The translations under genes were made by a program, and so were the position numbers. Below the pieces are notes generated by a model. It was given only the letters and a program-made list of their open reading frames with translations, was not told the DNA's origin and made no database searches. From positions 37,852-101,851 of the forward strand of contig JAFSRP010000008.1 of NCBI GenBank assembly GCA_017446045.1: a DNA stretch of 64,000 bases, in the 5' to 3' direction. This document shows, piece by piece, positions 5,399 through 45,400 of this stretch (the first letter of the stretch is position 1; each line of letters begins with the position of its first letter). The stretch comes from Lachnospiraceae bacterium (GTDB taxonomy: Bacteria; Bacillota; Clostridia; Lachnospirales; Lachnospiraceae).

Positions 5399-8047
5399 TT
5401 ACTTAAGCACAGGCAGTGCATGCCAGATATCGCGCGCATAGTCGCGGATACTGCGGTCAGCCGCAAAGCGGGCAGCCTTGGCGATGTTGTCGACAGACAT
5501 GGTGTACCAGCGCTTCGGATCATCATAAGCCTTCTGGATCTCTTCATGGACACGGCAGTAGTCGCCGAAGTCCAGAAGACACATATACGGGTCAGCAATG
5601 CTGTAGGACGGCTGCAGCAGGTAATTGCGCAGCACATTGAAGTCCTTGCCCGCAAAGCCGCGTCCGAGACGGTCGACCGCCCGCTTGAGATCCTGGTTGT
5701 TCTCATAGTAATGAGCGGCATGATATCCTTTGAGATTGGCACGTACTTCCTCTTCACGCTGGCCGAAGATAAAGATGCTCTTCGGGCCGACAGCTTCGTA
5801 GATCTCCACGTTGGCTCCGTCCATGGTGCCGATGGTGATGGCGCCGTTGATCATCATCTTCATATTGCCGGTTCCGCTTGCCTCCTTGCCGGCCAGGGAG
5901 ATCTGCTCGGAGATCTCGGTCGCAGGCATGAGGTCCTCAGCCATAGATACGCTGTAGTCCTCCAGGAAGACGACCTTCAGCTTTTCGGCGATCTTCGGAT
6001 TGCGTTCGATCTCTTCACTGATCTTGCAGATGAGAGAGATCGTATGCTTTGCCAGGAAATAGCTCGGCGCAGCCTTGGCGGCGAAGAGATAGGTCTCCGG
6101 CTTCATATCCATATCCGGATCGTCAAGAAGGTTGTTGTAGCGGACGATGATACGAAGCGCGTTCAGCAGCTGACGCTTGTACTCATGCATACGCTTCGCC
6201 TGTACGATGAACAGGGAATCCGGATCAACCTTGATACCCTGCGCTTTCAGGATGCGCTTTGCCATACGCTCTTTATTCTCGCGCTTGATCTGGGCGAGTT
6301 GCTGGTGTACGGAGGCATCGTGGCGGAAGCGGTCAAAGTCTTCGAGACGTTCCGCGTTGCGGCGGTAGTCCGGTCCGATACAGCTGTCGATCAGCTCGGC
6401 CAGCTTCGGGTTGGACTGACAGAGCCAGCGGCGGTACGCGATACCGTTCGTAACATTTGTGAACTTGTCGGGCGTGGCAAGGAAGAAATCATGGAAGAGA
6501 TCATCCTTGAGGAGCTGGCTGTGCAGCGCGGAAACGCCATTGACACGGTGAGAGCCGATGACGGAAAGATTGGCCATGCGCACCTGCTCATTGCCGAGGA
6601 TGGACATGTAATCGATCTTGCCCCAGTCACCCGGGAATTTCTGCTCCATCTCGGCGCGGAAACGGCGGTTGATCTCCTGGAGGATCGAATAAACACGCGG
6701 CATCATGGAACGAACAAGGCTGGCATTCCACTTTTCAAGGGCTTCCGCAAGAACGGTATGGTTGGTGTAGGATACGGTGTTGATGACACGCTCCCATGCA
6801 TAGTCCCAGGTGCAGCCGTAATCGTCCATGAAGATCCTCATCAGCTCCGGAATACAGAGTGCGGGATGGGTATCGTTGATATGGATGACAGTATACTTAT
6901 GGAAGTCATCCAGAGAACCATGCAGTCTGAGCTGGTTGCGGACGATATTCTGACAGGAAGCAGAGACCATGAAATACTGCTGCTTCAGTCTGAGCTCCTT
7001 GCCTTCCTCGATGTTGTCGGCGGGGTACAGGACCTTGGTGATCAGTTCGGCGCGGTTGGTCGCCTGGGCGGCGCGTGTGAAATCGCCGCTGTTGAAGAGC
7101 TGCATGTCAAATCCTTCGGAGTTCTGTGCCTTCCAGAGACGAAGCTTGTTGACAGCCTTGGTGTTGGCACCGGAAATATAGAGGTCATAGGGAACCGCTT
7201 CCACGACTTGCGGATTATGGACCTCATAATGCAGCCCGTCCTCAGCCCACCATTCGTTGTATTCACCGTAGAAATTGACCTTGAAAACGTCCTCATGGCG
7301 CTGATTGAGCCATACACGGCCGCCTGGCAGCCAGTTGTCGGGCATTTCGACCTGCCAGCCGTCGACGATCTTCTGTTTGAAAAGGCCGTACTCATAGCAG
7401 AGGGAATAGCCGGTGGCATCATAGCCGCAAGTGGTCAGCGCATCCAGGAAGCAGGCTGCAAGACGGCCGAGGCCGCCGTTGCCGAGTCCCGCATCGGGCT
7501 CAGCCGCAAACAGGTCTTCCATGGCAACGCCGCGCTCCTTCATGATGGAAGCGACCAGCTCTGTCTGACCGAGGTTGTAGAGGTTGTTCTTCAGGGACTG
7601 GCCCATGAGGAACTCCATGCAGATATAGCAGATCTTTTTGCGGTGCAGGTTTTTCTTTTCGACTTCGAACCGCTCCTTATTGTAGGCGGTACGCATGGTG
7701 CCGAGCTCGCGGTCGACCAGTGTGGCGATCGCCTGATACAGGTCGGAGATTTCGGCATGTTCAAAATCAGTATGCAGGGTATGGGTCAGATAGGTGTCCA
7801 GTTCTCTGCGGAATACGATCGGATCAAAAAGGGTAGCGGGTTCTTCAGCCACAGGTGCGGCTTTTTTTTCTGCAGGCTTTGCAGCGGCTGTTTTGGGGGC
7901 TGCCTTTTTTACGGCAGACTTTGCTTCGGTTTTCTTAGCAGAGGCGGTTTTGGTTTTGGCCGCAGCTGCCTTTTTGGTGCCTGTCTTGGAGGCGGACGCC
8001 TTTTTAGCGGCGGTCTTGGTTTCGTCTGTTGTCTTCTTAACTGCCAA
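5399..8047 (-). CDS. glgP: Glycogen/alpha-glucan phosphorylase with Lys/Ala-rich N-terminal tail
   Basis: An 882-residue GT35 phosphorylase that releases glucose-1-phosphate from glycogen chain ends. The core is complete: YICMEFLMGQ, the GLGNGGLGRLAACFLDAL active-site stretch, and KEASGTGNMKMM with the pyridoxal-phosphate lysine at about residue 730, followed by GTMDGANVEI. Residues 1-70 are unusual: about 19 lysines in the first 62 positions, mixed with Ala and Thr, like a histone H1 tail. The start is TTG, chosen because AAGAAGG lies eight bases upstream and no better start precedes the phosphorylase fold. It lies 74 bases downstream of glgA on the same strand and shares the terminator with nfnB. 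Ordinary bacterial GlgP is about 750-830 residues, so the extra length is the tail. Confidence 0.95.
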   Translation of the reverse strand: MAVKKTTDETKTAAKKASASKTGTKKAAAAKTKTASAKKTEAKSAVKKAAPKTAAAKPAEKKAAPVAEEPATLFDPIVFRRELDTYLTHTLHTDFEHAEISDLYQAIATLVDRELGTMRTAYNKERFEVEKKNLHRKKICYICMEFLMGQSLKNNLYNLGQTELVASIMKERGVAMEDLFAAEPDAGLGNGGLGRLAACFLDALTTCGYDATGYSLCYEYGLFKQKIVDGWQVEMPDNWLPGGRVWLNQRHEDVFKVNFYGEYNEWWAEDGLHYEVHNPQVVEAVPYDLYISGANTKAVNKLRLWKAQNSEGFDMQLFNSGDFTRAAQATNRAELITKVLYPADNIEEGKELRLKQQYFMVSASCQNIVRNQLRLHGSLDDFHKYTVIHINDTHPALCIPELMRIFMDDYGCTWDYAWERVINTVSYTNHTVLAEALEKWNASLVRSMMPRVYSILQEINRRFRAEMEQKFPGDWGKIDYMSILGNEQVRMANLSVIGSHRVNGVSALHSQLLKDDLFHDFFLATPDKFTNVTNGIAYRRWLCQSNPKLAELIDSCIGPDYRRNAERLEDFDRFRHDASVHQQLAQIKRENKERMAKRILKAQGIKVDPDSLFIVQAKRMHEYKRQLLNALRIIVRYNNLLDDPDMDMKPETYLFAAKAAPSYFLAKHTISLICKISEEIERNPKIAEKLKVVFLEDYSVSMAEDLMPATEISEQISLAGKEASGTGNMKMMINGAITIGTMDGANVEIYEAVGPKSIFIFGQREEEVRANLKGYHAAHYYENNQDLKRAVDRLGRGFAGKDFNVLRNYLLQPSYSIADPYMCLLDFGDYCRVHEEIQKAYDDPKRWYTMSVDNIAKAARFAADRSIRDYARDIWHALPVLK

Positions 8048-34125: not shown

Positions 34126-35778
34126 ATGTTTGCAAAGATAAAAACCGCGGGACTCCGCGGAATAGAAGGATTTATGGTAGAAGTGGAAGCCGACATGCAG
34201 ACGGGCCTGCCTGGGTTTTATCTTACCGGAGCCCTGTCTTCAGAAACCAGAGAGGCCCAGTATCGGATCATGAATGCCATAAAAAACAGCGGGATCCGCA
34301 TGGAACCGAGGAAGATCACAGTAAATTTCTCTCCTGCAGCACTCCGTAAAGACGGGACCTCTTATGATCTGCCGATCGCTGTTGCGGTGTTGTGCGCAAT
34401 GGGACTGGCAGATTATAAAGAATTCGAACACACGGCTTTTTTCGGCGAAACCGGGCTGGATGGCAGCCTGAAACCGGTGCGCGGTGCGCTGCCGATGGCA
34501 TTTACCTGCAGGGAGAACGGGGCCACGAGGGTGATCGTTCCAAAGGGAAATGAAGCAGAGGCGGCGCTTGCGGAAGGCATTGAAGTGATCGGATGCAGGG
34601 ATATTCCTGAAGTGCTGAGTATATTGAACGGCAGTTGGTCTTCGCGTGATCACAGAAGTATATGTACATCCTGGGAAGAAGAGTGTGATCCGCCGGAAAG
34701 GCGATCCGGCGTGTCTGCATTTCCGAAGCGAACGCCGGATAGAAGTACATCGGAAGGATGGAGTGCGGAGGAGGCTGCAGGAGCATACCGGGTCGACTTT
34801 TCGGAGGTCCACGGCCAGGAATACTTGAAACGGGCAGCTGAGGTCGCTGTCAGCGGAGGCCATAATTTTCTGATGAGCGGACCTGCGGGGACCGGCAAAT
34901 CCATGATTGCAAAGAGGATGCCGACCATTATGCCGGATCTGGGGCGGGATGAAGATATTGAGATCTCCAAGATCTACAGTATTTGCGGCCTGCTTTCCGA
35001 AGATCGTCCGCTGCTGGGACACCGTCCCTTTCGAAGCCCGCACCACGGGATCTCGGAGGCGGCATTTGCAGGGGGAGGGAATATGGTGATGCCCGGTGAG
35101 ATCTCCCTTGCCTCCGGCGGGATCCTTTTCCTTGACGAGCTTCCTCTGTTTCAGCGCAATACCCTGGAAATGCTCCGGCAGCCGCTGGAGGATAAACGTA
35201 TCACGGTAACACGCATGAAAGGCAGTTATACATATCCGGCAGACTTTATTCTTGTAGGCGCGATGAACAACTGTCCCTGCGGCCATTTTCCCGACAGATC
35301 GCGATGCCATTGTACTAAAGCACAGATCCGGGCGTATATGGGACGCCTCTCCAAACCGCTGCTCGAAAGGATCGATATCTGCGCAGAGGCGAGACCGGTG
35401 GGATACGGCGAACTGACAGGCACGGTCTCTTCGGAAACTTCTGCGGTGATACGCAAGAGGGTGGAAGAGACCCGCCTTATACAGGAGGAACGGTTCAGCA
35501 CTTTAGGCAGATCAGCCTGCAACGGACAGATGGGGATCCGTGAAGTAGAGCATTATTGCAGACTGGGAAAGGAAGAAACGGATTTCATGCGTGAGATCTA
35601 CCAGATGAGAGGCCTCTCCGGCCGCACCTATCATAAGATCCTGAAGGTTGCGAGAACGATCGCTGATATGAGCAAGTCTGACAATATCGGGATCAGTCAT
35701 CTTGCGGAAGCTGTGGAACTGAGAAGCATGGAAGACTCCCTTTTCCCGGCTGGGGCATCAGCGAAGGAGGCGTTTTGA
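34126..35778 (+). CDS. YifB/ComM-family Mg-chelatase-like AAA+ ATPase
   Basis: A 550-residue protein: an N-terminal Lon-like domain (GLPGFYLTGALSSETREAQYR) and an AAA+ ATPase with Walker A GPAGTGKSMIA and Walker B GGILFLDELPLF, then NCPCGHF and a C-terminal Mg-chelatase helical domain. The ComM relatives act as branch-migration helicases in natural transformation. ATG 34126 has GGAGG eight bases upstream. A Ser/Arg-rich linker at about 170-220 is longer than usual. The stop overlaps the dprA start (TGATG), consistent with joint DNA-uptake functions. Confidence 0.9.
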   Translation: MFAKIKTAGLRGIEGFMVEVEADMQTGLPGFYLTGALSSETREAQYRIMNAIKNSGIRMEPRKITVNFSPAALRKDGTSYDLPIAVAVLCAMGLADYKEFEHTAFFGETGLDGSLKPVRGALPMAFTCRENGATRVIVPKGNEAEAALAEGIEVIGCRDIPEVLSILNGSWSSRDHRSICTSWEEECDPPERRSGVSAFPKRTPDRSTSEGWSAEEAAGAYRVDFSEVHGQEYLKRAAEVAVSGGHNFLMSGPAGTGKSMIAKRMPTIMPDLGRDEDIEISKIYSICGLLSEDRPLLGHRPFRSPHHGISEAAFAGGGNMVMPGEISLASGGILFLDELPLFQRNTLEMLRQPLEDKRITVTRMKGSYTYPADFILVGAMNNCPCGHFPDRSRCHCTKAQIRAYMGRLSKPLLERIDICAEARPVGYGELTGTVSSETSAVIRKRVEETRLIQEERFSTLGRSACNGQMGIREVEHYCRLGKEETDFMREIYQMRGLSGRTYHKILKVARTIADMSKSDNIGISHLAEAVELRSMEDSLFPAGASAKEAF

Positions 35779-36875
35779 TGGACGAAAGAACAGCATTATA
35801 CCTTCTGTATTCATCGGAGGAACTGTGGACAAATACAGTATCTGCCATGCGCACTTACGCAGGATCGTATGAGAATGCCCTTTTTGTCCCTCCCGCGACC
35901 TGGCGTCGCGAAGGCATTTTACGGAACAGTAAAAAAGAATCGGCATTTACCTCGATCATACAAAACAGGCAGCCCCTAATTGATAAACTGAAGCGCTATG
36001 AAGCGATGGGAATAAAGATGGTGACACATTTGGATGAATGCTTTCCGGAGCGCCTGCGGAACATTCCGGATCCGCCCCTTCTGCTGTGGGTACTTGGGGA
36101 TCTGCCCAGGGATGATATTCCCTCGGTGTCTATTGTCGGTGCCAGAGAATGCAGCGAGTATGGGACCGGTGTTGCGGAGTACTTTGCAAAAGAGCTTGCG
36201 GAAGCCGGCGTCCAGGTCGTCAGCGGATTGGCATACGGAATCGATTCCGCAGCAGGTCGTGGCGCGGTAAATGCCGGCGGCAGAAGCTTTGCGATTCTTG
36301 GAACGGGTGTCAACAACTGCTATCCAAAAGAGATGTATCCTCTCTACAGGAATCTGATCAACGGCCATGGAGGTGTGATCTCCGAGTTTATGCCGGGCGC
36401 TCCGCCGCTTCGCCAGCATTTTGTGATGCGCAACCGGATCATTGCCGGCTTCGGGGATGTACTCCTTGTGATCGAAGCGAAAGAAAAGAGCGGGACTTCT
36501 ATCACTGTCGGTTACGCGCTGGATCAGGGAAAAGATATCTTTGCGCTGCCGGGGCGCATTACCGATCCTCTCGGTTATGGCTGCAACCGCCTTCTAAAAG
36601 ATGGTGCGATTCCTTTGACTTCTCCGTCGGATGTATTGGAATACTTCGGAATAGGCGAGAGCGGACAGATGACACTGGGGCTGAAAGATCTGTCATCACT
36701 GTCTCCAAAAGAAAAAATCGTATGGGACAACCTTTCCGTGGATCCACGGCACATAGAAGATGTCGCGCTGCGAAGCGGTATGCCATTGCAGGAAGTGCTC
36801 GCCCTTCTTTATCGTCTGGAACATAAGGCTTTCGTCACTGCCACCGGCAGCGCTTATTGGGCGCGGAGGATGTGA
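35778..36875 (+). CDS. dprA: DNA-processing protein DprA
   Basis: A 365-residue protein that loads RecA onto incoming single-stranded DNA. The Rossmann-like core is intact: SIVGARECSEYGTGVAEYFA, VVSGLAYGIDSAAGRGA, GTGVNNCYP and RNRIIAGFGDVLLVIEA, with KSGTSITVGYALDQGKDIFALPG. The C-terminus has a small winged-helix-like region. It starts inside the yifB stop codon with AAGGAGG upstream. In many Firmicutes topA follows directly; here an AT-rich islet of about 1.4 kb intervenes. Confidence 0.95.
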   Translation: MDERTALYLLYSSEELWTNTVSAMRTYAGSYENALFVPPATWRREGILRNSKKESAFTSIIQNRQPLIDKLKRYEAMGIKMVTHLDECFPERLRNIPDPPLLLWVLGDLPRDDIPSVSIVGARECSEYGTGVAEYFAKELAEAGVQVVSGLAYGIDSAAGRGAVNAGGRSFAILGTGVNNCYPKEMYPLYRNLINGHGGVISEFMPGAPPLRQHFVMRNRIIAGFGDVLLVIEAKEKSGTSITVGYALDQGKDIFALPGRITDPLGYGCNRLLKDGAIPLTSPSDVLEYFGIGESGQMTLGLKDLSSLSPKEKIVWDNLSVDPRHIEDVALRSGMPLQEVLALLYRLEHKAFVTATGSAYWARRM

Positions 36876-36904
36876 TGGGAGTTTAAATATGTAATGGAAA
36901 GAGT

Positions 36905-37176
36905 CGAGCCTGCTCAGAAAAGCATCTGACGGCCACAAATAAAGAAAAGATAGAGCGAGGCCGTGGTTTTTGAAAAGTAATCCGGCCATAAATTGAGGCA
37001 ATTGAAAATGCGGTCGGAATTATGACAGAAAAAGCCGGCTACTAATAGTGAGAACATGGAAATGTGGCCGTTATTATATCGAAAAGAGCCGACCACAAAT
37101 CGGCACAATTAAAAAAGAAGCCGGCATTTCGGGATTTTGAGACGGCCGCTTATATTGAGTTACAAGTTTTCGGCCG
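36905..37176. repeat. 53-bp tandem repeat array with paired CGGCCG-like cores
   Basis: About five and a half degenerate units. Each unit has an a core (starts 36930, 36983, 37036, 37090, 37143) and a b core (starts 36905, 36958, 37011, 37065, 37119, 37171). Cores read CGGCCA, CGGCTA, CGACCA or CGGCCG. From a to b is 28-29 bp and from b to a 24-25 bp, so the period is 52-54 bp. Between cores the DNA is A-rich and loosely conserved: a-halves tend toward CAAATTGAGGCAATTGAAAA and b-halves toward TTATTATGACAGAAAAGAGC. The array ends about 20 bases before the ribosome site of the next gene. The surrounding 36876-37208 holds no gene. Confidence 0.85.
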
Positions 37177-37208
37177 TACATACAAAAGAATATTAAAAGG
37201 AGATCTAT

Positions 37209-38003
37209 ATGTTGTCGATACGAGATGAATTATTGAAAAGACAGCAGTTATATTCTACTTTGGAGAATGATATAGAGAAGAAGCTTAAAACTGCACCCTG
37301 TGGTTCATTGCGAATCAGTAACAAAGATGGGAGAGTTCAGTATTATCATCGCAGAGTTCCGTCTGAGAGAAGCGGAACTTATATATCAGCCAAGGAACGA
37401 AACCTGGTATCAGAGTTGGCACAAAAAGAGTATGATAATCAATTACTTAGAATAATCAAAAAAGAATTGAAGGCGATCGATTATTACCTCAGAGTCAGTC
37501 CGGCACAGGATCTAAAGGAAGTGTATGAAACACTTCACGGAAAAAGAAAAGAAGCAGTGATCCCCATGATAGAAACGGACGAAATGTATCTGCAGCGATG
37601 GCTGAATATGGAATTCAATAAAAAAGGATTTGAGGACGGCGCTCCTGAATTTATAACCGATAAAGGGGAACGGGTAAGATCAAAATCGGAAATGATCATA
37701 GCCAATTTGCTTACTAAGCTGGACGTTCCTTATCTTTACGAAGTACCGGTCTTTTTGAACGGTTTTGGAAATGTTTACACAGATTTCAGAGTACTGGATC
37801 TCCGCCAGCGTAAGGAATACTACTGGGAACATCTGGGAATGATGGATAACAGCAATTACGCCGATAGAAATGTCCGAAAGATCACTGCATATGAACTGAA
37901 TGGATTTTTCCAGGGAGAAAAGCTGATCATTACGTATGAAACAAAGAATGATCCTTTAAATATGCGGCATATCCAAAAAATCATCGAGCATTATTTTCTG
38001 TGA
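37209..38003 (+). CDS. Unrecognised protein with PD-(D/E)XK nuclease-like motifs
   Basis: A 264-residue protein I do not recognise as a named family. Residues 1-115 are basic and helical (EKKLKTAPCGSLRIS, ISAKERNLVSELAQKEYDNQ). Residues 155-240 carry a pattern like PD-(D/E)XK nucleases: RVRSKSEMIIANLL (E161), YLYEVPV (E178), YTDFRVLD (D192) and YYWEHLGMMDN (E207), with the usual final Lys replaced by His208 or supplied elsewhere. Base composition is clearly more AT-rich than its neighbours. AAAAGGAG precedes the ATG, and the 53-bp array lies directly upstream. A DNA-binding or DNA-cutting role is inference; no transposase or partner gene is present. Confidence 0.6.
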   Translation: MLSIRDELLKRQQLYSTLENDIEKKLKTAPCGSLRISNKDGRVQYYHRRVPSERSGTYISAKERNLVSELAQKEYDNQLLRIIKKELKAIDYYLRVSPAQDLKEVYETLHGKRKEAVIPMIETDEMYLQRWLNMEFNKKGFEDGAPEFITDKGERVRSKSEMIIANLLTKLDVPYLYEVPVFLNGFGNVYTDFRVLDLRQRKEYYWEHLGMMDNSNYADRNVRKITAYELNGFFQGEKLIITYETKNDPLNMRHIQKIIEHYFL

Positions 38004-38266
38004 TCACGAACCGGACTTTATCGCCTGAGTCGTTAAATGAACGTATACGGACGGCCATGTTTCGGGCCTTTTTTCAGGCTCTGGAGGTAAGAGGAAAGAT
38101 CATTAAAAATCGAAAATATGAAAAATTAAGAGAATATTGGTTTGACATTCCATCGAAACTATAGTAATAGAATTCATAAAACATCGAGTGGCAGACGAAC
38201 ACCTGTCCGAAGTTTTTCCTTAGGATCTCCGGGCGTTCGTACTGCACGCGTGACGGAGTAATAAAT
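38004..38266. other. Intergenic region before topA
   Basis: No gene is seen in these 263 bases. CGGCCA at 38052 with a following GGGCC and TTTTTT (38066-38073) may be a weak terminator for the islet gene. TTGACA at 38142-38147 with a poor -10 (TAATAG, 38165-38170) may be the topA promoter. Near the gene, GCAGACGAAC (38191-38200) and GTTCGTACTGC (38235-38245) can pair imperfectly to give a leader hairpin. Confidence 0.4.
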
Positions 38267-40258
38267 ATGGCAAAAAACCTTGTGATCGTCGAGTCACCGG
38301 CGAAAATGAAAACAATCAAGAAGTTTCTTGGATCCAACTACACCGTAGATGCTTCCATGGGACATATCCGTGATCTTCCGAAATCCAGCATGGGCATCGA
38401 TGTAGAGCACGGATTCGAACCGAAGTATATTACGATCCGCGGAAAGGGCGATCTGATCGCCTCCCTGAAAAAGGAAGCTGCCAAAGCAGATAAGATCTTT
38501 CTGGCAACGGACCCTGACCGTGAAGGAGAGGCTATAAGCTGGCATCTGAAAGCGGCACTGGGACTGGACAGTTCTGATAAAAAGGTCTGCCGCATCACCT
38601 TTAACGAGATCACGAAGGATGCGGTTACCAGGGCGCTGAAGAATCCCCGGGGCATTGACATGAATCTCGTAAATGCCCAGCAGGGCCGCCGTGTCATGGA
38701 CCGTGTAGTCGGTTATTCCATCAGTCCTCTGCTTTGGGAAAAGATCAAACGAGGTCTTTCTGCCGGCCGTGTTCAGTCTGTCGCCCTCAGGATGGTATGC
38801 GAGCGGGATGCGGAGATCAACGCTTTTGTGCCGCAGGAATACCACACAGTCGATGCGACGATCAAAAACGGTGCAAAGACGGTCAAGGCTTCCTACTATG
38901 GTGAAAACGGACGGAAAAAGACACTGCATACCGCTGCCGAGGCGCAGAAGATCGTGGACGATGTGCGCGGACAGGATATCGCAGTCACGGAAGTAAAAAA
39001 CAGTGACCGTGTCAAAAATGCTCCCTGGCCCTTCACCACATCCACCATGCAGCAGGAGGCATCCCGCCTGCTGAATCTTTCGACGCAGCAGACCATGCGC
39101 ATCGCGCAGAAACTGTATGAGGACGGCCGTATCACTTATCTCAGGACCGACTCCATCCGTGTCAGCGATGAAGCTGTTGCCGCAGCTAAAAAATATATTG
39201 GGGCAGAGTACGGTAAGGATTATGTTTCGTTCAGGTCCGGATCCGGCAAGTCCGGAAGCAATGTGCAGGATGCACATGAAGCGATCCGCCCGACACATAT
39301 CGAAGATACACCTGCGGTTCTGAAGGAATCTCTTGCGCGGGATGAATTTCGTCTCTACCAGCTGATCTGGAAGCGGTTCACTGCAAGTCGCATGACCCCT
39401 GCGGTCTATGCACAGACTGCGGTTCGTCTGGAAAAGGATACACATACCTTTACTGCCTCCGGGTCTCATCTGAAGTTTGACGGTTTTCTCAAGGTATACC
39501 GTCAGGACCAGGAAGATGAGGAGGAAAAGCAGGATCTTGGGTTCCTGAAAGAAGGGATGACCGTACGCTTCGAAAAAGTGGAAGATGTACAGCATTTTAC
39601 CGAGCCGCCCGCACACTATACCGAAGCGACGCTGGTGCGTGCGCTGGAAGAGGAAGGAATCGGAAGACCTTCGACTTATGCGCCTACGATCGGAACACTG
39701 CTCGGCCGCAACTATGTGACGAAGGAAAAGAAAAATCTGTACGCAACGGAACTGGGATTTGCGGTGAACGAGCTCCTGGTAGGCTCTTTCCCCGGCATCG
39801 TGGACGTCGGTTTTACCGCCAAAATGGAAGAGCAGCTGGATGCTGTTGAAGAAGGCAGAGCTGACTGGAAAGATATCATCGCTTCTTTCTACCCCGATCT
39901 GGAAAAATCCGTAGCTGCTGCGAGGGAGAATCTCGGACGCATCAAGGTTGCCGACGAGGTGACCGATGAGATCTGTGACAAATGCGGACGCAACATGGTC
40001 ATCAAATACGGACCGCATGGCAGATTTCTGGCCTGCCCGGGATTCCCGGAATGCCGCAATACCAAGCCGCTGCTCGAGAAGATCGGCGTGAAATGTCCGA
40101 ACTGTGGATCTGACATCGTGAAGAGACGTACAAAAAAAGGACGTTTGTTCTATGCCTGTGAGAATAAGGACTGTGATTTTATCAGCTGGCGCAAGCCGGG
40201 TTCAAAAGGCGGAAAGGCTGATTTAAAGACCGCTCCTGAAGCAGGAGAAAAGGCCTGA
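38267..40258 (+). CDS. topA: DNA topoisomerase I
   Basis: A 663-residue type IA topoisomerase that relaxes negative supercoils. The TOPRIM domain begins VESPAKMKTIKKFLG and contains DPDREGEAISWHL; the catalytic Tyr is about residue 291 in GRITYLRTDSIRVS. Two C-terminal C4 zinc ribbons follow (CDKCGRNM...CPGFPEC and CPNCGSDI...CENKDC), then a Lys/Gly-rich end. Length and order are normal for Firmicutes. Confidence 0.97.
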   Translation: MAKNLVIVESPAKMKTIKKFLGSNYTVDASMGHIRDLPKSSMGIDVEHGFEPKYITIRGKGDLIASLKKEAAKADKIFLATDPDREGEAISWHLKAALGLDSSDKKVCRITFNEITKDAVTRALKNPRGIDMNLVNAQQGRRVMDRVVGYSISPLLWEKIKRGLSAGRVQSVALRMVCERDAEINAFVPQEYHTVDATIKNGAKTVKASYYGENGRKKTLHTAAEAQKIVDDVRGQDIAVTEVKNSDRVKNAPWPFTTSTMQQEASRLLNLSTQQTMRIAQKLYEDGRITYLRTDSIRVSDEAVAAAKKYIGAEYGKDYVSFRSGSGKSGSNVQDAHEAIRPTHIEDTPAVLKESLARDEFRLYQLIWKRFTASRMTPAVYAQTAVRLEKDTHTFTASGSHLKFDGFLKVYRQDQEDEEEKQDLGFLKEGMTVRFEKVEDVQHFTEPPAHYTEATLVRALEEEGIGRPSTYAPTIGTLLGRNYVTKEKKNLYATELGFAVNELLVGSFPGIVDVGFTAKMEEQLDAVEEGRADWKDIIASFYPDLEKSVAAARENLGRIKVADEVTDEICDKCGRNMVIKYGPHGRFLACPGFPECRNTKPLLEKIGVKCPNCGSDIVKRRTKKGRLFYACENKDCDFISWRKPGSKGGKADLKTAPEAGEKA

Positions 40259-42420: not shown

Positions 42421-45400
42421 GTAATGAAAACAATGAAAATGAAGTGAAAAAGGCCGCTGCACCTGCCAGACGCAGGGAAGGTGCCGCAGCTGAGAGTGCC
42501 GGAGGACAGGCAGCCCCCCGTAAGAAACTGAATGTTGTATTCAGGAAGCAGAATTCCACCAGCATCAAAGAGCTTCCGAAGCGCCTGAAGAGCGCTGCCG
42601 ACGGAAGTACGGAAAGAAGGCAGAAGCCGGCTGAAAGTGTTGCTGCTGCAGCTGCGGGATCCAAACGTCCGCGTCCGCTTCCGGCAGGTACGAAACCGGT
42701 AAAGCCGGCTGTTTATGGTGCGCCTAAGACAGCGGGTGCGTCGGCTGTGAAGAAAGCGGTACAGAAGGCAGAGACAAGACCCGCTGAAACTGTCGGAGAA
42801 GCAGCTGCTGATAAGGCAGCTGAACTTGCGGCAGCGGCTGAGCTGCGCGCTGCGGAAGAAAAGCAGAAGGCAGCAGCAGAGGCGGCAGAAGCGGCAAGAG
42901 TACAGACAGAGGCCCAGGCGGAAGCCGTCGCTCCGGTTACGGAACAGGCATCCATACCGGAAGAGCCTGCGGCTGAACCTGTTGTCAACGTAAAAGAAGA
43001 GCCGCAGGGAACAGGCGCTCCCGAAGAAAGCGAAGAAAAGGCTGCTGCGAAGGCGGAGACGAAGCCTGCTCAAAAGGCGGAGACAAAGCCTGCCCCAAAG
43101 GCGGCGTCAGGTGCCGCAAGAACGGGCACTGCCCAGACGAGATCTGATGCCGGCGATGGAAAACCAAAGGTTCGCATCGTCAAATCATATGCCAATTATG
43201 ATGCAGCCGCAGTCATTGCGGAGGCATCCCGTCAGGCCCGTAAAAATGTTGCGTCACAGCGCGGGCCGGAAGGTGCTGCTCCTTCACAGCGCAGACCCAG
43301 GACTCCCGGAGAGGGTCCGGGAAGGCCTGCCGGCAGAAATGCAGGCGCGCCGGGTACCCGCAGAGAAGGACAGGGACAGGCAGGCGGCTCACGCCGTCCC
43401 GGCGAGGGCGGCAGGACATTTATCGCCCGCGGTTCCGCGGCACCGGGCGGCAGAGCGGCTGCGCCCGGCGGCAGAGCAGGCGCTCCCGCTCCGGCATTTA
43501 ACGCGACACAGGGCAAGAACGCAGGCGGCCGCGGAGGAAGAAATACATACGCCGGCAAGGATAAAAAAGACAGAAAAGATAAGTATGTGGACGAACTGAC
43601 AGCCAGCAAGACGGCACGTACCGGCAAGGGTGCATTTATCCGTCCGGAACCCAAGAAGGAGAAGCCGGAGGAGGAGATCAAGGTCATCGTCATTCCGGAG
43701 AAGCTCACCATCAAAGATCTGGCAGATAAGCTTCACATGCTGCCGAGTGTGATCGTCAAGAAGCTCTTCCTTCAGGGCAAAATGGTGACGCCAAACACCG
43801 ATCTGAGCTATGAAGAAGCAGAAGAGATCGCTATGGAATATGACATCCTCTGTGAAAAGGAGGAAGTCGTCGATGTGATCGCCGAGATCCTGCGTGAGGA
43901 TGAAGAAGACGAAGAGAAGATGATCACCCGCAACCCGGTCGTCTGTGTCATGGGTCATGTCGACCATGGCAAGACTTCCCTGCTGGATGCGATCCGTAAT
44001 ACCAATGTGACTGCACGCGAAGCCGGCGGTATCACGCAGCACATCGGTGCTTCTGTCGTTCGCGCGGGAGATCGCGATATTACCTTCCTGGATACTCCCG
44101 GCCATGAGGCATTTACGGCAATGCGTCTCAGAGGCGCCCAGTCCACCGATATTGCCGTATTGGTCGTCGCTGCGGACGACGGTGTCAAGCCGCAGACCAT
44201 TGAGGCGATCAACCACGCAAAGTCGGCCGGTGTCGAGGTGGTCGTTGCGATCAACAAGGTCGATAAGCCGGCAGCCAATATCGATATGGTCAAGCAGGAG
44301 CTGACAGAGTACGGTCTGATCGCGGAGGAATGGGGCGGTTCTACGCCGATGGTCCCCGTGTCTGCCAAGACCGGACAGGGTATCAGTGATCTGCTGGATA
44401 TGATCCTGCTGGTTGCGGATGTGCTGGAACTCAAAGCCAATCCGAACCGCAACGCGCGAGGCCTCGTGATCGAGGCCCAGCTGGATAAGGGAAGAGGTCC
44501 CGTGGCAACTGTCCTGGTCCAGAAGGGCACCCTGAAGGTCGGCGACAATGTCGCTGCCGGCGCATGTTACGGCAAGGTCCGCGCGATGATGGACGATAAA
44601 GGCGGCAGACTGCGTAAGGCAGGCCCGTCCGTTCCGGCAGAGATCCTTGGTCTGAACGACGTCCCCAATGCGGGCGAAGTATTCATGGTCTGCGATGACG
44701 AGAAGGAAGCCAGAAGCATTGCGGAGACCTTCATTGCCGAGCAGAAGAAGCACAAGCTCGAAGAGACGATGCAGAAGATGAATCTGGATCAGCTGTTCGA
44801 TCAGATCAAGGCAGGAAATGTCAAAGAACTGCCGATCATTGTCAAGGCAGATGTGCAGGGATCCGTGGAGGCGGTCAAGCAGAGTCTCGGCAAGCTTTCC
44901 AATGAAGAAGTCGCAGTCAAGGTCATCCATGCGGCTGTCGGTAATATCAACGAGTCCGATGTCAACCTGGCATCCGCTGCAAATGCGATCATTATCGGCT
45001 TTAACGTCAAACCGGATCCGACCGCAAAGTCTACGGCGGAACGTGAAAAGGTCGATGTGCGTCTGTACCGTGTGATCTATCAGGCTATCGAAGATCTGGA
45101 AGCAGCCCTGACAGGTATGCTTGCTCCGGTCTACGAGGAGAAGATGACCGGGCGCGCGATCGTCCGCCAGCTGTTCAAAGCAAGCGGTGTTGGTACGATC
45201 GCAGGATGCTATGTAACGGACGGTGTCATTGAAAAGGGATCGCGTGCAAGAGTATTCCGCGGTGATAAGCAGGTATTTGACGGCGACATCGCATCCCTGA
45301 AGCGCTTCAAAGATGAAGTTAAGGAAGTACGCCTCGGATTCGAGTGCGGTATCGTTCTTGACGGGTTCAGTGAAGTACAGGTCGATGACAATCTGGAGAT

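Follow-up and report, generated by a model that had tools for sequence, protein, structure and literature searches.

A solitary nuclease-like gene with a cognate array of alternating, helically spaced DNA sites: a putative enzyme-DNA array partnership in Lachnospiraceae

The DNA analysed here, referred to as the window, was a stretch of 64,000 nucleotides from a Lachnospiraceae bacterium (assembly GCA_017446045.1, contig JAFSRP010000008.1). An array of ten core sites with strictly alternating orientation was located at positions 36928-37178 by a chain model in which the core itself is learned. Sites 1, 3, 5, 7 and 9 (36928-36939, 36981-36992, 37034-37045, 37088-37099 and 37141-37152) were on the reverse strand, and sites 2, 4, 6, 8 and 10 (36954-36965, 37007-37018, 37061-37072, 37114-37125 and 37167-37178) on the forward strand. 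The steps from site to site were 26, 27, 26, 27, 27, 27, 26, 27 and 26 bp; like-oriented sites were 53-54 bp apart, and the pitch of 53 bp corresponded to five helical turns. Directly downstream, 30 bp after the end of the array, started an open reading frame for a nuclease-like protein of 264 residues, P0001 (37209-38003, forward strand). The neighbouring genes, dprA on the left (35775-36875, forward strand; Pfam DNA_processg_A, 3.5e-70) and topA on the right (38267-40258, forward strand; Pfam Topoisom_bac, 5e-128), were considered to lie outside the system.

The consensus of the core was approximately TTTGYGGCCGT and was asymmetric. Eleven near-palindromic cores of two types, a and b, had been described in the initial annotation. 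Its coordinates and spacings were essentially right, but ten sites were supported by the chain model, the two types were a single asymmetric core in opposite orientations, and the near-palindromic look held for this CGGCCG core only. Two further core-like sequences were noticed by eye: GTCGAGCC at 36903, roughly in phase with the array and unscored by the chain model, and a lone GACGGCCATGTTT at 38050-38062, located 3' of the nuclease gene beside a possible terminator. Elsewhere in the window, at 43030-43104, Tandem Repeats Finder reported a 24-bp tandem repeat of 3.2 copies with 80% matches.

The chain-model score of the window array was 133, compared with a mean of 58 (sd 8.9, maximum 81) for dinucleotide shuffles, and none of 100 shuffles reached it in the same search. 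In a simpler link search the array was not clearly separated from shuffles, 78, 15, 48 and 50 of 400 being as good for word sizes of 6, 7, 8 and 9, respectively. Tandem Repeats Finder and a repeat finder reported nothing at this stretch. When a fixed length of 700 bp upstream of each gene was scanned, roughly half of it dprA coding sequence in this case, the window was absent among the arrays listed at z≥4. The case for the window array was built on the chain model together with the homologous loci described below, and on these grounds the array was confirmed as real.

The junction between dprA and topA was surveyed at 21 topA loci from other genomes of the genus, of which 14 showed dprA in the stretch. 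The two genes were 3-69 bp apart in 12 of these 14 and were separated by a reverse-strand DAHP-synthase gene in two (the copy at L174 matched Pfam DAHP_synth_1, 2.7e-48). At four further loci a DAHP-synthase-type gene adjoined topA with no dprA in view, and the remaining stretches held neither dprA nor a DAHP-synthase-type gene. It was observed that this junction varied within the genus (36876-38266 in the window; L174-L179), being a gap of up to 69 bp, a DAHP-synthase gene, or the nuclease gene with its array. Because the congener junctions held no such pair, the array and the nuclease gene were regarded as a junction occupant that none of the other genomes examined showed. An association with DprA or with competence was considered and rejected, since 3-69 bp in 12 of 14 congeners leaves no space for an array. 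The DprA/RecA connection of the initial annotation was dropped for this reason, and also because the orphan arrays described below adjoin other genes.

The P0001 protein was divided into an unnamed N-terminal part (residues ~1-148) and a PD-(D/E)XK-like C-terminal part (~149-264). Its C-terminal ~115 residues matched the C-terminus of PDC-S68, a phage-defence candidate in PADLOC (1.3e-27), with only positions 1101-1218 of 1221 (~118 positions) aligned, and no full-length match of P0001 to this ~1200-aa model was found. An alignment of 75 sequences was composed of P0001 and 74 of 76 listed proteins. The C-terminal match to PDC-S68 was present in all 75 members and that to PDC-S69 in 56, while the PD-(D/E)XK model HEAT_CxxC_PDDEXK matched 38; no Y1 transposase model occurred among the Pfam matches of the 75. 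Residues S158, K159, E161, E178, D192, E207 and H208 were invariant in this alignment. The lysine of the D/E-X-K motif was not kept at its usual place, the residue two after E207 being variable, and one of the 24 members of a smaller alignment (L017) was without E207; catalysis by the family is therefore uncertain. Searches of Pfam, NCBIfam, PHROGs and PDB sequences returned no informative family, P0001 itself falling into none of Pfam or NCBIfam; 6 of 24 N-termini matched RecX_HTH1 weakly (best 0.0003).

Homologues were found in 121 of the 396 sampled genomes of the bacterial family of the window, and of 549 named matches, the 80 best came mostly from Lachnospiraceae and from other Clostridia. 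The distribution was patchy, and some genomes carried several paralogues, with five nuclease matches in G252. The protein family was rare outside chromosomes: it was matched by 3 of 50,697 phage records (one of them unannotated, 31% identical and matched over 80% of the protein), by 9 of 72,556 plasmid records, none across most of the protein, and by one viral contig in the C-terminus only. Many of the loci came from metagenome-assembled genomes, and gene starts were chosen by script. One homologue (G368:C79:10029-10646) carried three in-frame stops, in a genome with ten units of the AACCGTA core introduced below. A recent intragenomic duplication was considered for L127 and L128 and was rejected, as both 8.8-kb stretches proved identical from end to end, like the arms of a palindromic contig.

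Absence of the spacing at homologous loci had been named beforehand as the outcome that would speak against the pattern. Equivalent arrays with different cores were found near homologous genes at 63 of 149 loci and in 1 of 104 control stretches. An array was called by the chain model at z≥4 (sd floored at 3) and a pitch above 30 bp, the threshold being the choice of the analyst. The control stretches were taken 2.0-3.2 kb from the genes and received 12 shuffles each, compared with 20 for the test stretches. Rows with a mean pitch below 30 bp were removed as low-complexity, namely two of the test rows and four of the five control rows, so that the only control array kept was L143 with a pitch of 50 bp. 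Loci with duplicate proteins, twelve in all, were excluded. The 86 loci without an array at this threshold, the 700-bp stretch of the window itself included, may include decayed arrays as well as truly absent ones.

By side, arrays were detected upstream of the gene at 55 of 142 loci and downstream at 8 of 144, and in a few loci (L139, L064) both sides were flanked. The cores included CAGTTGTA (L008), TGACTGCA (L019), TCCCGCTG (L065) and, downstream of its gene, GTCAGCCC (L126). The longest chains reached 25 sites. At L098, a second array was seen at 5774-6291, ~1 kb past the nuclease gene, with a similar core and a pitch of 75 instead of 84 bp; no second nuclease gene was found near it among the listed ORFs of at least 120 aa.

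The pitches of 64 arrays were grouped at 51.7-54.5, 61.2-64.2, 72.8-74.9 and 84-86 bp, two were at 38.8-39.7 bp, and none fell elsewhere. The resultant length R of the pitches was 0.852 at 10.5 bp with a phase of ~0, the best-fitting repeat being broad (R of 0.84-0.86 across 10.25-11 bp). When one array was taken per protein cluster (<45% identity), R was 0.826 (n=26, Rayleigh p~2e-8). When 634 spacings from 60 arrays were counted without constraint, near-palindromic cores being excluded, the main peaks were unchanged (R 0.723, phase 0.2 bp). Whole turns did not fit L011, with its pitch of 40 bp, or the 39-bp portions of L068.

Pitch also changed within arrays. In 31 of 60 arrays, some spacings were more than 6 bp apart from one another; many of these were off the grid, and five arrays were judged to show clear whole-turn jumps. 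The pitch shifted between 41-42 and 74-75 bp in L025 (off-grid values 45 and 55), between 84 and 94 bp in L098, between 73 and 62-63 bp in L106 (off-grid value 67) and L136, and among 53-54, 62-63 and 75 bp in L164 (off-grid values 35, 36, 36 and 39). Such helix-locked spacing, kept while the sequence of the spacers changes, indicates a protein on double-stranded DNA. Two ideas of the initial annotation were thus borne out, namely that spacing rather than sequence is kept, as seen at the homologous loci, and that whole helical turns matter, as seen from the pitch clusters at ~53, 63, 74 and 84 bp.

Further, the arrays were compared with the proteins encoded next to them (64 protein-array pairs). 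Core similarity tracked protein identity (Spearman 0.21, 0 of 2000 permutations), a similar core being shared by 59% (n=41) of the protein pairs that were 60-80% identical and by ~1-2% of those below 40%. Pitch class followed protein identity more strongly than the core did (Spearman 0.42, 0 of 2000 permutations). The partial correlation of core similarity was 0.126 with the N-terminal part and 0.051 with the C-terminal part. The covariation of core and pitch with the protein could arise from linkage by descent alone, host kinship being uncontrolled. The earlier suggestion of cooperative binding by the downstream protein gains indirect support from this tracking of protein by core and pitch.

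Units of the form AACCGTA-gap-TACGGTT were found away from nuclease genes. G446 contained 56 such units, G445 had 11 and G450 had 10, with no match of the control pattern in these three genomes, and 0 to 6 units in the other seven genomes searched (none in G389 and G447). The G446 genome had 2 nuclease genes only, compared with its 56 core units; some units belonged to the arrays of the genes themselves (three listed on contig C126 of G446). Of the 20 places examined in G446, 17 contained at least 10 core matches within one mismatch.

Many of the same 20 places (L199-L218) were seen to lie in a MITE-like element of ~490-520 bp, repeated across the genome, with ends like GTTACTTTTCA and an array of up to 12 sites. 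At least one GTTACTTTTCA-like end within one mismatch was present at 10 of the 20, and an exact target duplication of 8-9 bp in three of the six copies judged two-ended. No MITE-like element ends were found in the 8.8-kb locus of the G446 nuclease gene; another transposase may therefore move these copies. Over 18 aligned copies (L209 and L210 omitted), conservation was 98.0% for the cores, 87.6% for the spacers within the array and 70.7% for the rest, the cores being somewhat favoured because each copy had been preselected for an exact match of one core pair.

In G252, three further arrays had the core and the 26/27 spacing of the gene's own array and different spacers, which repeated within an array. 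No nuclease relative was found within 2-5 kb around each of the three, and one G252 nuclease gene was also located on contig C13, ~37 kb from the orphan array there. A further array on C9 surfaced in the empty-site comparison for an orphan array (a single genome of the genus). Two orphan arrays, L219 and L225, lay between convergent genes according to the reading of ORFs.

At least three AACCGTA units were present in four of the 396 genomes, all four among the 121 with the nuclease. Another 44 genomes had one or two units (any match, 48 of 396). The control pattern matched 39 of 396 genomes and never more than twice per genome; since it reached the same level, one or two AACCGTA matches mean little. 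In G322 the gene's own array was found and no others. The core of the window was unenriched elsewhere in its own genome (G000), with 132 matches compared with 304 for the control pattern at two mismatches, and dispersal of this core in its genome was rejected on these counts.

Based on these comparisons of sequence, we proposed that the solitary PD-(D/E)XK-like nuclease gene and its cognate array form a cooperative DNA-binding platform for the nuclease itself, and we put the probability of this reading at roughly 0.6. Most likely, copies of the protein recognise the core and assemble cooperatively on a single face of the DNA, where whole-turn spacers would let neighbours touch in register, and the pitch would be set by the geometry of the protein of each clade. 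Arrays probably grow by tandem duplication, followed by drift between cores while the cores are kept. The same core appears to have been seeded as orphan arrays into the intergenic DNA of some genomes, which makes the gene-array pair resemble a repeat family equipped with an enzyme of its own. Any regulation of the gene by its cognate array would probably be a by-product. The array, its alternation, the clustering of pitches at whole turns, the association with genes, the tracking of the protein by core and pitch, and the orphan arrays were seen in the sequences; binding, oligomer formation, cleavage, array growth, spreading and benefit were inferred.

A more elaborate form of this proposal was considered, at clearly less than even odds. 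Each paralogue might read its own core and count whole helix turns like a key in a lock, so that the enzyme would assemble only on arrays spaced by an integer number of turns, and this assembly would license or restrain cutting; the arrays might spread through the chromosome as selfish or self-marking addresses, and several orthogonal pairs could coexist in one genome.

The cooperative platform was weighed against other explanations. It was considered unlikely that the array is only an operator, through which the protein, bound cooperatively to phased sites, would repress the gene that encodes it. The bias of detected arrays to the upstream side (55 of 142 compared with 8 of 144) and the 30 bp between the window array and the start codon agree with such a role, but some arrays are downstream of the gene or on both sides, chains reaching 25 sites seem overlong for it, and a pure operator role is made unlikely by orphan arrays without an adjacent nuclease relative, two of them between convergent genes. 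The main rival was a defence device, in which the nuclease would attack foreign DNA and the chromosomal array would tether, license or restrain it. The C-terminal matches to PDC-S68 (75 of 75) and PDC-S69 (56 of 75), the patchy distribution and the several paralogues of some genomes point in this direction. However, the PDC-S68 match of P0001 covers ~118 of 1221 profile positions, the window copy neighbours dprA and topA with no partner gene, and the family is seldom met in collections of phages, plasmids and viral contigs (3, 9 and 1 matching records), unlike many mobile defence genes. Additionally, PDC-S68 and PDC-S69 were unmentioned in the main text of the papers searched. A defence role was judged improbable.

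The array might also act as RNA, as a row of hairpins serving, for example, as an RNA antitoxin of the type III toxin-antitoxin kind. Inverted cores can fold, and the folding z-scores of the window array were -2.8 and -3.4 for the two strands, which in our judgement is what inverted cores would give. Nevertheless, neighbouring arms varied independently at one spacing (24 same-deviation pairs compared with 22.6 expected, a count reached by 192 of 500 permutations) and nearly so at the other (30 compared with 24.1 expected, reached by 37 of 500). The position weight matrices in this comparison merged both orientations, and a consensus common to both was hence partly built in. RNA would have no need of whole-turn DNA spacing, arrays are found both upstream and downstream of genes as well as in orphan form, and no Rfam family matched the array. 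RNA stems were rejected as the main reading because of the lack of clear covariation between neighbouring arms, and an RNA role was rated as very improbable. Chance, or the decayed remnant of an ordinary tandem repeat, would fit the naive link search, which was not clearly significant, and the blank result of Tandem Repeats Finder, but not the absence of equally good shuffles under the chain model (0 of 100), nor the sharper arrays and clustered pitch of the homologous loci. It was refuted for the family by the control stretches and was given a negligible weight overall.

Spacing by whole turns, shared by arrays whose cores differ, argues strongly on comparative grounds for a large protein-DNA assembly, and the arrays accompany an uncharacterised nuclease-like family present in 121 of 396 sampled genomes. 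As distant members differ in core and some genomes carry several paralogues, the set would provide a natural collection of DNA sites paired with their binders. The findings are also relevant to the origin of repeat families without tyrosine transposases.

The design was compared with several known systems. Iteron and DnaA-box arrays are multi-site and are bound cooperatively by a protein that is often encoded nearby. The present arrays are similar in having many sites and a protein gene nearby, with cooperative binding a probable further likeness, and they differ in strict alternation, in having no replicon or origin context at the window copy and in occurring as orphans within ordinary intergenic DNA. 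ToxIN and other type III toxin-antitoxin systems carry direct repeats, which act as RNA, immediately upstream of a nuclease gene. The window array has the same position, but its cores alternate, the sequence varies between cores, and the arms show no clear covariation. CRISPR arrays consist of identical direct repeats with unique spacers, whereas here the cores alternate and the spacers repeat; no cas genes flanked the window pair, where dprA and topA were found instead. In contrast to restriction-modification systems, the window pair had no methyltransferase gene next to it, its neighbours again being dprA and topA. The PADLOC phage-defence candidates PDC-S68 and PDC-S69 contain a related nuclease-like C-terminal part, but the PDC-S68 models have 1202-1273 positions, whereas the proteins described here have ~265 residues, a different N-terminal part and an array of their own. 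Among the open-licence PubMed Central papers listed in searches for this pattern and for PDC-S68, none described such a system.

The nearest known design appears to be that of REP/BIME repeats with RAYT and of REPINs, although the enzyme here is unrelated. RAYTs have been described as tyrosine transposases whose genes invariably lie between two inverted REPs (PMC2817692), and the RAYT enzyme and the REP repeats co-diversify (PMC2817692, PMC3116915). The likeness lies in short cores of alternating orientation and regular spacing, placed by the gene of a DNA-processing enzyme and also dispersed, and in the co-diversification of enzyme and repeat, which linkage alone could explain in the present case. 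The differences are that a RAYT is a Y1 (HUH) tyrosine transposase flanked on both sides, whereas a PD-(D/E)XK-like protein with arrays mostly on one side of its gene is found here. REP/BIME copies usually exceed 100 per genome, compared with a maximum of 56 units among the few cores searched, and the whole-turn pitch is a hallmark of the present arrays. As a Y1 transposase defines the REP/BIME-RAYT family and the enzyme here is of another kind, the system was placed outside that family. It would work like REP/BIME-RAYT without being a member, and, measured against the open-licence literature, it looks like an undescribed partnership of an enzyme and a DNA array in gut bacteria.
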